A DNA stretch of 64,000 nt from Alicyclobacillaceae bacterium I2511. Its GTDB lineage: Bacteria > Bacillota > Bacilli > Alicyclobacillales > Alicyclobacillaceae. Below the pieces are notes generated by a model. That model saw nothing but the letters and a program-made list of their open reading frames with translations, did not search any database and was not told the origin of the DNA. The position numbers were made by a program, and so were the translations under genes. The stretch spans positions 1 through 64,000 of the forward strand of contig QXHL01000002.1 of the NCBI GenBank assembly GCA_003584005.1. The letters run 5' to 3'. Below, piece by piece: positions 4,327 to 58,773 of this stretch (its first letter is position 1; the number at the start of each line of letters is the position of its first letter).

Positions 4327-5225
4327 CCTCTGCTCCCCTGCGTACTACAGAAGAATTGATAAAATTTTGTGACCATTATTTTGCTGCTTGTCAAGCGCGA
4401 GTGCTTTGTACTCAATCTGATTACCGGGAATATGAGCTACCCGTGGACGTGGACAAAGAGTTGACAGACCGCCCATTTTTTTGGGCATGGATAGAACAAA
4501 CTGGGCAAACCGCTCCCCCCACCATTCTTCGTTTGGCTTTCACGGTTGAAGCAGCTGAGAGGGAAAATCGTCGATTAAGACATCAGGTCGAAGAACAACA
4601 AGTGGGAATGGCACACCCTACATTTATTCCAATCCCCAAGTCAGAACTACTAACCCTGGGAAGTTTTCGGCTCGCGCGTATATTTGCCTCTGTTGAGGAA
4701 AGGGGTAAATATGCAAAAGTGAAACCTAAAAGTGAACATGGAAAAGCGATGGTTACACATCTTGTACCATGGCTGATGATAAACCTGCTCATTTCTTATC
4801 GTTCCGATTTCTTGCGTCAAGAATTTGTCTCCTATGGTATATGTCTTGAAAACGGGCAAATCACAGATAATTTTTACGACTTAATTAAAAATATACCTAT
4901 GGAAACTGTATCAGAAACGGAATTATGTTTAAATGCCACCCTGTCCTTCACAGCAGCCAATCAGATAATTCGACGCAGAATAGAACAGTATATTCATCAG
5001 CTACCCCATGACTGGGCCATAACTGCATCACAGCACTGGGCCGATGAAATTGTTCAAATAGAAACCTACTACCAGAGTCTAGCACCCGACAAGGACGTTT
5101 CGGAATTGGCTATGCTTGAATCCGAAAAACAGTACAAGCTACAGCAGCTAGAAAAGCGCTATCGTCCACACATAGAAATCGAAGCCAAGCAAATAGCCCT
5201 AATTTATTTGCCTCTCCACAGATAA
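4323..5225 (+). CDS. yqhG: YqhG family protein, partner of the SNF2 helicase
   Basis: A 300-residue soluble protein of unknown biochemical function. The conserved VDVDKELTDRPFFWAW near the N-terminus marks the YqhG family. The middle region is charged and predicted to be largely helical, with a C-terminal coiled-coil-like stretch (ESEKQYKLQQLEKRYRPH). The ATG at 4323 overlaps the helicase stop as ATGA and follows GGGAGG at about 4310; an upstream in-frame ATG at 4290 lacks a site. The tight coupling implies that the product works with the translocase. This is inference from context only. Confidence 0.85.
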   Translation: MTSAPLRTTEELIKFCDHYFAACQARVLCTQSDYREYELPVDVDKELTDRPFFWAWIEQTGQTAPPTILRLAFTVEAAERENRRLRHQVEEQQVGMAHPTFIPIPKSELLTLGSFRLARIFASVEERGKYAKVKPKSEHGKAMVTHLVPWLMINLLISYRSDFLRQEFVSYGICLENGQITDNFYDLIKNIPMETVSETELCLNATLSFTAANQIIRRRIEQYIHQLPHDWAITASQHWADEIVQIETYYQSLAPDKDVSELAMLESEKQYKLQQLEKRYRPHIEIEAKQIALIYLPLHR

Positions 5226-5284
5226 TGTTATTGTCATTTAACCCATTTTAGTCCATACCTAATACGTTGTTTCTGAGATAGTGC

Positions 5285-6205
5285 TTAAGTAAGTGATTCC
5301 AATCCACGTTGCCGCGCATCGTCCCCCTCCATGCGGGCAAGTTTGGTCATTTGCATGACGCGGCTACGCAATGGGGCGACTGAGTCATGAATATCCTCCC
5401 CATTCTTTCGATAAATATTAGGGGGTGCATAGTTGCTGGTAAACCAAGTAGACAATCCGGCATGAAATCGGTGATTGATAATTCGAAAGAGTTTTTCTAA
5501 AGTGAAATTGTTAGCCCGCTCCTGTGCAAATTCATCAATTCCCAGTATGGGGACAGTAGCGTATGTTTCCAATAAAGGCTCTAAATCCCCATTTGCGGCA
5601 ATAATATGTCTCATTCGGTCAAACACGGAATCTGAGCGAACAAACAAACATGGAATTCCCCGCTCCTGCAACCGATTTAAAACAGCTAATAACAGATGAG
5701 TTTTGCCTACACCGGGAGGGCCAAACAAATACAACCCAGCTGCCGAGTCGCCTACAGAAAAAGAATCTGCAAACTCACTGGCATAGTGGAATAAGCGTGG
5801 ATATTTTTGGCATTGTTCAGGTGGAAAATTAGCGAGTTGGAAATTTTTATCTAATTGTAATTCCCCTGAGATATGTTCCCATTGTTTAACGCGCCTTTGC
5901 ACAACATACTTCTGGTAAGGAAGACAAGGTTGTACAGAGAGGGATAAGTCCCGGCCATAAGGTTCCAGTACTTGTTGAAAACCCTGCATATCGCCCTCTT
6001 TACCACATTTTTCAAATCCCTGACAGTGGGCACAGATATCTTGTTGTCGCACATATTCAAGTAGCATTGCTTGTTGACGTTCAATCACATTGTCTGAAAC
6101 CTGCCAATTCGCAAGTTCTGTAATGTGGTTGCGAAAGTAGGAAACTCCATAGGTCTGTGGTGTAGATCCGCGGTACCGAATCATGAGGTTTTTAATATGC
6201 TCCAC
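5285..6205 (-). CDS. DnaI/DnaC-like helicase loader ATPase
   Basis: A 306-residue AAA+ protein. The N-terminal third has a Cys cluster (DICAHCQGFEKCG, then QPCLPY) like the zinc-binding, helicase-contacting domain of DnaI. The C-terminal part has Walker [11 protein letters not shown] near residue 165, Walker B ILGIDEF and a sensor-like TSNYAPP. DnaI loads the replicative helicase DnaB/DnaC onto DNA. The gene lies next to aroK, overlapping it by 14 bases, not in the usual dnaB-dnaI cluster, so it may be a paralogue or the relocated main loader. The window cannot settle which. Confidence 0.8.
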   Translation of the reverse strand: MEHIKNLMIRYRGSTPQTYGVSYFRNHITELANWQVSDNVIERQQAMLLEYVRQQDICAHCQGFEKCGKEGDMQGFQQVLEPYGRDLSLSVQPCLPYQKYVVQRRVKQWEHISGELQLDKNFQLANFPPEQCQKYPRLFHYASEFADSFSVGDSAAGLYLFGPPGVGKTHLLLAVLNRLQERGIPCLFVRSDSVFDRMRHIIAANGDLEPLLETYATVPILGIDEFAQERANNFTLEKLFRIINHRFHAGLSTWFTSNYAPPNIYRKNGEDIHDSVAPLRSRVMQMTKLARMEGDDARQRGLESLT

Positions 6206-6770
6206 TACCGCGCCCCCCCTTTAAAAAAGATTTCACAAAATCATTGTCCGATTCCAGGGTAACGATTAATTGCTTTGCAATTTCCTCGGGTGAACGATGA
6301 TCGACATGGATGATATATGTAGCCACTTGTTCATAGAGCGGGCGGCGTTGTTCCCACAATAGTCTTACCTTTGCGGCCAAGTCATCGCCCCCTGAAAGCA
6401 ACGGACGTGTTTTTGCCCCCTCATCGGATAAATGCATCAATAGAGTCTCTACATTGCCTTGCAAGAATACCACGGTCCACCATTCTCGTAAAAGCTTCTT
6501 TGACTGCGGAGAAACCACTAATCCTCCACCTGTGGCCAATACGCTCAAAGTCTCTGCAGTCTCTTGGGTGACCCGCGTCAAAGCGGCGAGCTCAGAGTTA
6601 CGAAACTCAGGCTCCCCTCCAATTGCGAAAATTTCTGTAATGGTCTTACCTGTATCGCAAACAATCTCTTGATCTAGGTCGATGAAGGGACAATTCAAAA
6701 TACGGCTAACGATCTTACCCACGGAAGTTTTGCCAACCCCAGCCGGTCCTACTAAGGCAATTCCCTTCAT
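6192..6770 (-). CDS. aroK: Shikimate kinase
   Basis: A 192-residue P-loop kinase that phosphorylates shikimate at the 3-hydroxyl with ATP. Walker A is GPAGVGKTS at residues 8-16. The magnesium and substrate-binding pair is FIDLDQEI (Asp31 and Asp33), with the shikimate-contacting EFRNSE, TGGGLVV, and a TRPLL lid arginine. It has about 20 extra residues at the C-terminus compared with short family members. Its end overlaps the start of the loader gene. The location between comG and yqhG matches the B. subtilis neighbourhood. Confidence 0.95.
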   Translation of the reverse strand: MKGIALVGPAGVGKTSVGKIVSRILNCPFIDLDQEIVCDTGKTITEIFAIGGEPEFRNSELAALTRVTQETAETLSVLATGGGLVVSPQSKKLLREWWTVVFLQGNVETLLMHLSDEGAKTRPLLSGGDDLAAKVRLLWEQRRPLYEQVATYIIHVDHRSPEEIAKQLIVTLESDNDFVKSFLKGGRGSGAY

Positions 6771-6831
6771 TTAATTTCCTCCCAATCACGAAAATAATAT
6801 TTCCCGAATCATGTATCCTTACGTCTCGTTC

Positions 6832-7290
6832 CTATTGAACACGACTGTGGTCCACCCATTCAGTTAATCTTCTCGTAGTTGGATCAATTGAAAAATAAAT
6901 CGTATCCGTCCCACCTGCATGTCCTGTTGCCGTAACCAATACATGCCACAGAGTATCTTTTGTAACTGTAGTGTCTACAATTCCATTTGCAAACACTTCT
7001 TTTTGTCGAGTGATGGGCAAACTATTTTGAGTCTGCATTTGATGCAACACAGCATTGGCCTTTCCCCTAGCAAGCCAATAAACTTGATGTTGCATGTGGC
7101 GACTGGTTTCTATTGAGGTGGTCCCGATGACTAAGGTGTAAAACGCGGTTCCCATTATTCCACCAAGCAAAATAAAGGGTAACAAGCTAAGTAATGCACT
7201 CCCCTGCTGGCCCACGAAGCCGGAGGGACCAACCCTACGGCGTGGTCGCAATAGCAAGAGCAGTGTATGCAGCCTCTCGCTTGCTTCCAT
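6832..7290 (-). CDS. comGG: ComGG-like minor component of the competence pseudopilus
   Basis: Last gene of the comG unit. The 152-residue product has a hydrophobic helix (SALLSLLPFILLGGIMGTAF, about residues 31-50) after a basic N-terminus containing GQQGSA, which resembles the PilX/ComGG arrangement rather than a classical FTLLE pilin. The C-terminal part is a small soluble domain. The ATG at 7290 follows GGAGGGG and lies inside the 3' end of comGF. Assignment rests mainly on position and topology, since ComGG proteins diverge strongly. Confidence 0.65.
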   Translation of the reverse strand: MEASERLHTLLLLLRPRRRVGPSGFVGQQGSALLSLLPFILLGGIMGTAFYTLVIGTTSIETSRHMQHQVYWLARGKANAVLHQMQTQNSLPITRQKEVFANGIVDTTVTKDTLWHVLVTATGHAGGTDTIYFSIDPTTRRLTEWVDHSRVQ

Positions 7291-7720
7291 TCACAAATTC
7301 CCCTCCAATTGTAATTGTAGCGGAATCAAGTGCAAAGTTAACATCCTTCAATCCTGTGCACAGGACCGCAGTACCTCCCCCGACCTGTGTTCGAACAAGT
7401 TGTCCATGGGCATTTACCCCGTAGTGATACTGAAGCTGACTGATGGTGGTTATATCCAGACTTGTTTTTAAGGGGTGAATACTGAGGGCCTGGTGAATAT
7501 CGACGGCCATAACTCTTTCCACTGATTCCCATTGGGCATTAGTTTCGACACGCAAAAGCCATCGTTCTTCCGCTATGCGCAGTGCCAAAGACCACCCAAT
7601 AACCATCACAGTCAACACTGAGAAAAGGTTCAAAGCAACGATAGTTTCTAAAAATGAGAACCCACAAGTATTATTCCAATGCCGTATTGGGAATCCATAG
7701 AACTTGTCGAGCCTCACCAC
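7235..7720 (-). CDS. comGF: ComGF-like minor pseudopilin
   Basis: The frame carries a class III signal, CG-FSFLETIV, with Glu at +5 and a hydrophobic helix following. Prepilin peptidase would cleave between Gly and Phe. Downstream is a small domain of about 120 residues. The frame extends far upstream, but the region before about 7720 overlaps comGE entirely. I place the start at a GTG pair (7720 or 7717), giving a leader of about 20 residues and a 161-residue protein. The start is uncertain. The 50-base overlap with comGE fits this compact operon. Confidence 0.65.
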   Translation of the reverse strand: MVRLDKFYGFPIRHWNNTCGFSFLETIVALNLFSVLTVMVIGWSLALRIAEERWLLRVETNAQWESVERVMAVDIHQALSIHPLKTSLDITTISQLQYHYGVNAHGQLVRTQVGGGTAVLCTGLKDVNFALDSATITIGGEFVNGSKREAAYTALAIATTP

Positions 7721-56644: not shown

Positions 56645-58417
56645 TTAGCTGGGTTCTGCTACCACGAGTTGGGGCACTCCCTGTGTCACTTGAATCCACA
56701 CAAGTCGGTCCTCGGAAACGGTAAAGTCACTCACAGTGCCATTCAGCGTATAGGCAGCACTTTGATCCAATCCTGCTGGGCTTGATACCTGCCCCATTAA
56801 AACCTGCCACTGTCGCTTGTCCCCGTTGGCTGGAGTTGTTTCCACCCACCACAATCGACCGCTGATACCTCGCAGTGCCCAGTGGGGTTGCCCATCCAGC
56901 GGTGGACCCGTGAGCTTAGTCAGTTGCCCATCCCAACTCAAAGAGTACCAGGTGGCTTTATCAGAAACACCTGGAGTTTGACCCACAATACCTTGAAATA
57001 TCAGTTCTCCACTGCGTACCTCAGCGTCTGCCATCAGCCCAAAGGGTGCTGGAATTTGTACAGGCTTACCCAGCGCTTGTAAAGGGAGTTTGCCACGCAA
57101 GGTGTAGACACTAATGGGTAACCCCGATACCCCCGTATTCGATGTTGAGGTGTGGAACCCGTACTGTTCTACCAGGCGTCCACTCCCCACTGCAAGGGTC
57201 AACAAGTCCCTCCCCTTACTGAGTTCTAGCGACTGGACCAATCCGGCATGCTGTGTGGGCAAATACATTAAATAGACCTGCGTCACAGGCAATTCTTGAG
57301 GTGTTCCCGGTTGCCACCTAACCCATGTGACCATCCAGTCCCCAGTAATGCCCACTTGCCAATCTCCAACCGTCCAATCACTGTTTTCTGCAGTCGTTTT
57401 AGGATTGGTCAGCGGGGGAACCATGTCCATTTTACCCGCAGAAGTTTCATAACTTTCCAATGATTTACCCGAGGCACTATAAGGACATAAAGATAATTCA
57501 ATGGAAGGCCAAGAACTAGTGGGTAAATGCAACTTGGCCAAATAAATTCCGTTGTCAGCGGCGGCAATATGATTTAGGGGAATCGCGTCCGCTGTATTGC
57601 TGAGTCGAAACTGTGCAATGATGTTCACAGGCAAATTTCGTAAGGTCTGTGGTAATCCCTTCACAGCCTCATTTGCTGTCGTTCCTATCGTAATGCCTTT
57701 TTGTTCCTGATGCCATCCGTCAATGCCATACCCTGTTAGCCCTGCACCCAAGGCAATCAATGCCGCAAAGACAAAACGCACTCCGTTAGATCCCATCTGC
57801 CTTTTTTCCGCCGCCACCATCGCTGCGGCCGCAGTCACCAACTGACGAATGCGGTTTTGCACCGCTTGCCCCACATAAATATGGACGGCTTCTCGCATCA
57901 ATGCCTCTTTGTGTGCATCTAGAACCCCCGCAATGGTGGACCAGGACTCATTTCCCTTATCAATCCATCCCAAGGCCTCCGCGCTTTCCCCTAATCGGCG
58001 ATGTATCCAACGATCTGGCAGCAACAAAATGCGCGTCATTTCTAACGTACTACACCCACAGATTGAATACAGCAGTAACGGGGCTTTCAACTCAATCTGT
58101 AAGGCGCTGACATCCACCAAACGGACACCATTGCAGGTTTTCTGTGCGAATACATCTTTCCCCAATTTCTCTGCATGCTGCCCATCCCAGCCCCGATACA
58201 TCCGTAGAATCGCTGCAAACAGCGCATTGCGGGCGCCACTATACCTGTGTTGGTCTGTGGCAAGGCGCCGATAAGTGTCCACACACGTGGAATAGACCAA
58301 GTCCTGCGCTAAGGACAACTCCCCGGTTAATCCGTAGGCAAATCGCAGTCCATCCACACCATACTGTTCCCAAATTTTTTGCACTTGTTGCTGTTGCTCA
58401 GACCAGGACTTTCCCAC
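56645..58417 (-). CDS. ECF-sigma-like / transmembrane / extracytoplasmic fusion protein
   Basis: A protein of about 590 residues. Residues 20-78 resemble sigma region 2 (GLRFAYGLTGELSLAQDLVY, TYRRL, ILRMYRGW). Residues 107-150 resemble region 4 (LLLYSICGCSTLEMTRILLL, IHRRLGESAEALG), though degenerate. A helical linker follows, then one membrane helix at about 213-233 (VRFVFAALIALGAGLTGYGI). The remaining 350 residues would lie outside the cell, with repeated Trp-rich strands (WLVG-like GDWQVGITGDWMV, YSLSWDGQLTKLTG, RLWWVET) suggesting a beta-propeller-like sensor. GTG at 58417 after GAGGTGAGG is the likely start; 58426 is possible. I know no named family with this architecture, and function is inferred only. 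Confidence 0.75.
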   Translation of the reverse strand: MGKSWSEQQQQVQKIWEQYGVDGLRFAYGLTGELSLAQDLVYSTCVDTYRRLATDQHRYSGARNALFAAILRMYRGWDGQHAEKLGKDVFAQKTCNGVRLVDVSALQIELKAPLLLYSICGCSTLEMTRILLLPDRWIHRRLGESAEALGWIDKGNESWSTIAGVLDAHKEALMREAVHIYVGQAVQNRIRQLVTAAAAMVAAEKRQMGSNGVRFVFAALIALGAGLTGYGIDGWHQEQKGITIGTTANEAVKGLPQTLRNLPVNIIAQFRLSNTADAIPLNHIAAADNGIYLAKLHLPTSSWPSIELSLCPYSASGKSLESYETSAGKMDMVPPLTNPKTTAENSDWTVGDWQVGITGDWMVTWVRWQPGTPQELPVTQVYLMYLPTQHAGLVQSLELSKGRDLLTLAVGSGRLVEQYGFHTSTSNTGVSGLPISVYTLRGKLPLQALGKPVQIPAPFGLMADAEVRSGELIFQGIVGQTPGVSDKATWYSLSWDGQLTKLTGPPLDGQPHWALRGISGRLWWVETTPANGDKRQWQVLMGQVSSPAGLDQSAAYTLNGTVSDFTVSEDRLVWIQVTQGVPQLVVAEPS

Positions 58418-58500
58418 GAACCTCACCTCACCAATGACTAAAGGTTACGACCCGTCGTCCATCTGTGCAACTGTCCAATGCACAAAAAGAAAATTAAGCG

Positions 58501-58539
58501 AAATAAAAGCAGAGCGACCTCTGCGAAAGCCGCTCTGCT
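58501..58539 (-). terminator. Terminator of the tRNA trio
   Basis: AGCAGAGCG...CGCTCTGCT followed by TTTATTTCGC on the minus strand, five bases after tRNA-Lys. Confidence 0.88.
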
Positions 58540-58543
58540 AGCT

Positions 58544-58619
58544 TGGTGGGCCATGAAGGAATCGAACCTTCAACCTGCCGATTAAGAGTCGGATGCTCTG
58601 CCAATTGAGCTAATGACCC
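58544..58619 (-). tRNA. tRNA-Lys (anticodon CUU)
   Basis: A 76-base cloverleaf with encoded CCA. Acceptor GGGTCAT/ATGGCCC with one G-U pair, anticodon loop CTCTTAA with CTT, T-loop TTCGATT. The pair 27-43 is T-C, a mismatch. It reads AAG only. Confidence 0.93.
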
Positions 58620-58625
58620 ATATAG

Positions 58626-58697
58626 TGACCCTACGGGGATTCGAACCCCGATTACCGCCGTGAGAGGGCGACGTCCTAACCATTAGACGATAGGGCC
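58626..58697 (-). tRNA. tRNA-Glu (anticodon CUC)
   Basis: A 72-base cloverleaf, acceptor GGCCCTA/TAGGGTC, anticodon loop CTCTCAC with CTC, T-loop TTCGAAT. The 3' end continues ACTA, so CCA is not encoded. It reads GAG only. Confidence 0.92.
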
Positions 58698-58699
58698 TT

Positions 58700-58773
58700 T
58701 GGCTGCCGGACTAGGACTCGAACCTAGACTAACTGATTCAGAGTCAGTCGTGCTACCATTACACCATCCGGCA
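58700..58773 (-). tRNA. tRNA-Gln (anticodon CUG)
   Basis: A 74-base cloverleaf with encoded CCA. Acceptor TGCCGGA/TCCGGCA, anticodon loop CTCTGAA with CTG, T-loop TTCGAGT. The T1-A72 pair is typical of glutamine tRNAs. It reads CAG only. Confidence 0.94.

Follow-up and report, generated by a model that had tools for sequence, protein, structure and literature searches.

The window analysed here, a stretch of 64,000 nucleotides from Alicyclobacillaceae bacterium I2511 (contig QXHL01000002.1, positions 1 to 64,000), carries one intact gene of 590 codons on the minus strand at positions 56645–58417, an interval in which the plus strand is full of stops. The start codon is a GTG at 58417 and the stop codon occupies 56645–56647. 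An earlier note, made from the sequence, had placed the gene correctly without stating its strand; its description of an intact reading frame (the 590-codon frame at 56648–58417, minus strand) and of a good ribosome site (GAGGTG, 6 nt before the GTG) also holds. The GTGAGGTGAGG context 5' of the gene is found in a second genome (G001) as well, and a stem similar to the terminator-like hairpin at 58508–58539 was seen there. The encoded protein, hereafter the fusion protein, and its surroundings are summarised in Table 1.

Table 1. Features of the fusion gene, its product and its immediate surroundings (positions in the window; residues of the fusion protein)
Feature	Position	Strand	Basis
uvrC, same strand as the fusion gene, begins 38 nt past its stop codon	54834..56606	minus	
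Fusion gene, 590 aa: ECF sigma-like N-terminus, membrane helix, extracytoplasmic beta-propeller	56648..58417	minus	
Extracytoplasmic beta-propeller, residues 263–590, about 24 strands, family-specific sequence	56648..57631	minus	
Single membrane helix, residues 211–234, basic residues on the N-terminal (cytoplasmic) side	57716..57787	minus	
Two helices, residues 159–177 and 184–208, the second like the membrane-proximal helix of an ECF anti-sigma	57794..57943	minus	
Sigma4-like helix-turn-helix domain, residues 105–150	57968..58105	minus	
Sigma2-like domain, residues 5–85	58163..58405	minus	
Ribosome-binding site GAGGTG, 6 nt 5' of the GTG start (58417)	58424..58429	minus	sequence
Terminator-like hairpin 3' of tRNA-Lys, parting the tRNA cluster from the fusion gene	58508..58539	minus	
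tRNA-Lys, tRNA-Glu, tRNA-Gln cluster, directly upstream of the fusion gene; order kept in relatives	58544..58773	minus	

The gene order hisC, gltX, tRNA-Gln/Glu/Lys, fusion gene, uvrC and sdhCAB is kept in 34 Alicyclobacillaceae genomes, with a few local gaps and insertions. Orthologues of the fusion gene are present in at least 39 of the 41 genomes of the family, including those of Alicyclobacillus pomorum, tolerans, contaminans, mengziensis, fastidiosus, herbarius and others. A single-sequence search with the external domain identified 38 of these 41, to which a profile search added one more (G029); the two genomes without a propeller orthologue are G009, in which the contig breaks at uvrC, and G011, described below. 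A search of the sister family of the order found no orthologue, and none that was convincing turned up in a sample of about 800 genomes of the class and phylum. Outside Alicyclobacillaceae the upstream neighbour of uvrC is an SPFH-type or another gene, not the fusion gene. The fusion gene is a family-specific core gene of Alicyclobacillaceae, which are acid-loving bacteria. Because it sits between tRNA-Lys and uvrC across the family, the previous assertion that conserved synteny breaks at uvrC is wrong. One genome (G008, L072 8118–8800) has an additional gene between tRNA-Lys and the orthologue, apparently encoding a membrane-fusion-protein-like product of the HlyD/EmrA type.

Residues 5–150 of the fusion protein match ECF sigma regions 2 and 4 in the correct, collinear order. 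The window protein matched NCBIfam NF009170 with an E-value of 2.6e-7 and 30.2 bits, far short of the curated cut-off of 197. Pfam detected no sigma domain in the window protein alone; other members of the family do match. A profile built from nine full-length N-termini matched ECF sigma factors in the PDB over regions 2 and 4 (E 1e-7 to 3e-7), and a 16-member family profile matched the true ECF sigma factor of the same genome with E 5e-12 over 148 columns. The structure predicted for residues 1–209 (pLDDT 87.7, pTM 0.83) aligned best with ECF sigma factors and PhyR, although the Foldseek E-values were modest (best 0.008). These alignments included SigW from its complex with RsiW (Z 14.1, rmsd 3.6 A over 144 residues), SigG1 (Z 13.5, 2.5 A over 138 residues) and NepR-bound PhyR (Z 12.4, 2.6 A over 121 residues). 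As judged from the sequence profiles and the predicted fold, which agree with each other and with the degenerate ECF regions 2 and 4 proposed in the earlier note, the N-terminus is homologous to these regions and is a sigma factor by descent.

The fusion protein contains one hydrophobic span, at residues ~209–234, as had been suggested before. Residues 184–234, comprising this span and the helix preceding it, resemble the equivalent helix and span of the anti-sigma factor encoded beside the conserved ECF sigma factor of the family. The match, which is short and rests in part on the membrane span, scored 37.4 in hhalign; when the pre-membrane columns were shuffled, the maximum was 25.5 and none of 60 controls reached 37.4. 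We found no zinc-binding pattern, and there is no cysteine between residue 122 and the span (the cysteines are Cys 45, 95, 120, 122 and 311). Because the 184–234 segment resembles the anti-sigma of the conserved pair, the fusion protein looks like an old sigma/anti-sigma fusion, the simplest account of its sequence being that a sigma factor was joined to its own membrane anti-sigma.

The conserved pair itself (L135 3353–4968, minus strand, contig C166 of genome G000) consists of an ECF sigma factor and an overlapping single-span anti-sigma. It has clear orthologues, 51–61% identical to most, in 39 of the 41 family genomes, and is possibly the main envelope-stress sigma pair of Alicyclobacillaceae. 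The fusion protein is like this pair in that its sigma half is related to the sigma factor and its juxtamembrane segment to the anti-sigma. It differs in that the pair is encoded by separate genes, has intact sigma motifs and is strongly conserved; the external domain of the anti-sigma also differs from that of the fusion protein (hhalign probability below 1%). In one genome (G005) a 649-aa ECF frame was considered as a further fusion and rejected, as the frame reaches past the ECF start on the 5' side and the anti-sigma is encoded in another frame that overlaps it.

The external domain, residues 263–590, is a Trp-rich beta domain for which a propeller is predicted with high confidence, in line with the large Trp-rich external domain described earlier. 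Domain searches matched it to no sequence family. In the samples searched it has no convincing sequence relatives outside Alicyclobacillaceae, the two phylum-level matches being both weak and partial. Structure searches with the whole model (Foldseek, VIA) were filled with propellers of many unrelated families; identification as a sialidase or viral attachment protein was rejected, as these matches show a common fold only and no function. Two other membrane proteins of the same genome are encoded beside further sigma genes; between their external domains and the propeller no relationship could be detected.

Other loci of genome G000 were noted in passing. Contig C148 carries an ECF-like sigma gene that is apparently interrupted (L134 3714–5592, minus strand), with a 107-aa N-terminal frame and a separate region 4 match. 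The gene after it encodes a 448-aa protein with one membrane span and an external part rich in beta structure, and the two together resemble the fusion gene in unfused form; no relation could be detected between the external parts of this protein and of the fusion protein. On the same contig (L137 ~4900–7500) are CRISPR-like arrays, whose frames repeat LQRGRGVRPRSN, close to a transposase gene pair of the IS21 type.

Residues of the core-RNAP and promoter-melting motifs have been lost or replaced. The DxxQE motif of region 2.2 is a core-RNAP-binding determinant. In the window protein it reads D39-L-V-Y42-S43: the aspartate is kept, and the glutamine and glutamate contacts of region 2 are replaced by Y42 and S43, respectively. 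The glutamine of DxxQ is retained in 4 of 34 family members, and the sequence QETF in G010, G021 and G028. The promoter-melting segment, TWLLSITANR in ECF sigma factors, reads NALFAAILRMYR, so that the W/N motif is gone and the WL of region 2.3 is A65-L66. A helix-turn-helix is still predicted in region 4, but the conserved RTRLHRGR segment reads HRRLGESA. Overall, the window protein retains 14 of the 57 positions with 90% or more conservation in the true ECF sigma factor of the family (compared with 29 orthologues). Most family members still have A37 and F45, two core positions.

The domains also differ in their rates of change. Over the same genome pairs, median pairwise identity is 58% for the true ECF sigma factor, 37% for the propeller and 19% for the sigma part (28% among full-length forms). 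The sigma part is thus the least conserved and fastest-changing domain, and the true ECF in the same genomes the slowest. Pairwise dN/dS in close pairs, calculated by the Nei-Gojobori method for small samples of pairs with unsaturated dS, was ~0.12–0.21 for the sigma2 part, 0.08–0.15 for the propeller and 0.03–0.09 for the true ECF; the sigma2 part is therefore constrained, less so than a sigma factor.

At its fixed position the orthologue forms a graded series: sigma2 with sigma4, sigma2 only, and neither, with one relative lacking the sensor instead. Full forms with both halves occur in 13 of 38 genomes and the sigma4 half is missing in about 25; most of the latter keep only a sigma2-like stretch, inside an N-terminus of ~120–160 residues. 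Mapping on a FastTree tree of neighbouring genes, with regain excluded, gives about five losses of the sigma4 half, a count better given as roughly three to five because support for the tree backbone is low. The orthologue of G006 (L056 4389–5642, minus strand) has no sigma-like region and keeps the membrane span and propeller; it begins 80 nt past tRNA-Lys, just ahead of the span. The G011 orthologue (L115, reverse strand 430–1224) consists of a sigma2-like part and membrane span followed by a stop codon and then uvrC, with no propeller. G006 and G011 are each represented by a single assembly, and an assembly error could affect either. In G006, gltX was not found at its usual place on the contig of the orthologue, and in G002 (L088 8526–10676) the linker that joins the sigma4-like part of the orthologue to the span is expanded and consists of low-complexity, KLDAKLDT-type repeats. 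The family offers a natural deletion series with which to ask what a sigma fold can do when it no longer transcribes.

Because key residues are lost and the sigma part is eroded or discarded in many species, we conclude that the fusion protein, a sigma factor by descent, probably no longer acts as one. With moderate confidence, we favour the view that it is a former ECF sigma factor fused to its own membrane anti-sigma, which gained a beta-propeller, and that its sigma part is now a non-transcribing docking module like that of PhyR. The sigma-derived part would no longer direct RNA polymerase, and the conserved role at the cell surface would reside in the propeller and membrane-proximal segment. 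What remains of the sigma factor, mainly its sigma2 half, would act as a cytoplasmic protein-docking module that the helices of residues 159–208 couple to the propeller, and would have been dropped in lineages where its contact was no longer needed. On this reading the sigma module is still under purifying selection but shrinking; its docking role we infer from this constraint and by analogy with PhyR. The earlier note had offered, as its alternative, a sigma-like part that has lost DNA binding and serves as a protein-binding module. The binding module fits better than a working sigma factor does. Because full-length forms keep the region 4 helix-turn-helix and three genomes keep QETF, some residual polymerase or DNA binding may persist.

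A passive relic, to which we give perhaps a quarter of our belief, is the principal alternative. Here the propeller would be the sole functional part and the sigma-like N-terminus would be slowly decaying, aiding no more than folding and membrane insertion. The sigma part is indeed the least conserved domain and was lost about five times, and G006 has dispensed with it entirely while keeping span and propeller. However, dN of the sigma2 part is well below dS in every close pair (~0.12–0.21), most members of the family keep A37 and F45, and G011 has the sigma2-like part and span without the propeller. We regard as rather doubtful that the protein is an extracellularly controlled sigma mimic, in which the propeller would sense at the acid-exposed surface and switch a non-transcribing sigma-like domain that captures a partner, either an anti-sigma or RNA polymerase. 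If true, it would be a PhyR-like switch derived from a fused sigma/anti-sigma pair, with the dismantling visible across one family.

That the protein is a working membrane-tethered sigma factor carrying its own sensor, the main proposal of the earlier note, now seems improbable. Such a factor would be released by regulated proteolysis or conformational change when the propeller senses its signal, as proposed for ECF52 and shown for IutY. The architecture is like that of ECF52 and IutY-type fusions (PMC8999054, PMC5826349), both regions are collinear with ECF sigma factors, and the region 4 helix-turn-helix is retained in this genus. However, the Q/E of region 2.2 and the W/N of regions 2.3–2.4 are lost, sigma4 has been discarded repeatedly, and the sensor changes more slowly than the sigma part, whereas in ECF52 the sigma domain is the most conserved (PMC5826349). 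No shared ECF-type promoter was seen upstream: the motif AAC...CGT lies 5' of the gene in 2 of the 25 genomes, where chance alone would give 1.1, a weak test that we consider uninformative because the positive-control ECF likewise gave nothing beyond chance.

A partner switch, in which a propeller-controlled sigma-like decoy would release a true ECF by sequestering its anti-sigma, on the model of PhyR and NepR, is very unlikely: the closest folds do include PhyR and anti-sigma-bound sigma factors, the profile lies near the conserved ECF of the family and the juxtamembrane segment is like the anti-sigma of that ECF, but no co-loss of the pair and the sigma-like domain was seen, and a decoy role towards this anti-sigma is weakened because the pair persists in G006, which has no sigma-like domain, as it does in many genomes with half the domain.

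We retain the non-transcribing docking module as the preferred reading. A weak ECF match in an Alicyclobacillaceae genome is no ground for annotating or counting a sigma factor.

Few sigma factors fused to membrane sensors are known, most of them from Actinobacteria, and how they are activated is disputed. The fusion protein is like ECF52, ECF48 and ECF53 of Actinobacteria (e.g., SCO4117) in combining an ECF sigma domain, a membrane span and an extracytoplasmic sensor in one chain (PMC5826349, PMC8999054). ECF52 proteins carry a zinc-finger anti-sigma domain and a carbohydrate-binding module, and their sigma domain is the best conserved part, with 86% similarity compared with 74–79% elsewhere (PMC5826349). 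Unlike ECF52, the fusion protein is without a zinc motif, bears a propeller outside the membrane and has a degenerate sigma domain, which is less conserved than its other parts. ECF57 proteins combine an ECF sigma domain with WD40-like C-terminal repeats (PMC8999054) and, compared by description only, resemble the fusion protein in their propeller-type C-terminal extension. The sigma-like domain of PhyR, from the alphaproteobacterial general stress response, has an ECF fold with degenerate promoter- and core-contact regions and binds an anti-sigma rather than promoters (PMC8103513). The predicted N-terminal structure would likewise be a degenerate ECF fold, closely matching that of PhyR. PhyR, however, is soluble and, as a response regulator, has a receiver domain, whereas the fusion protein is membrane-anchored with an external propeller; no response-regulator receiver domain is present, residues 211–590 being accounted for by the membrane helix and propeller. 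The fusion protein represents a variant of the ECF sigma/membrane fusions already known, and its arrangement is both real and unusual.
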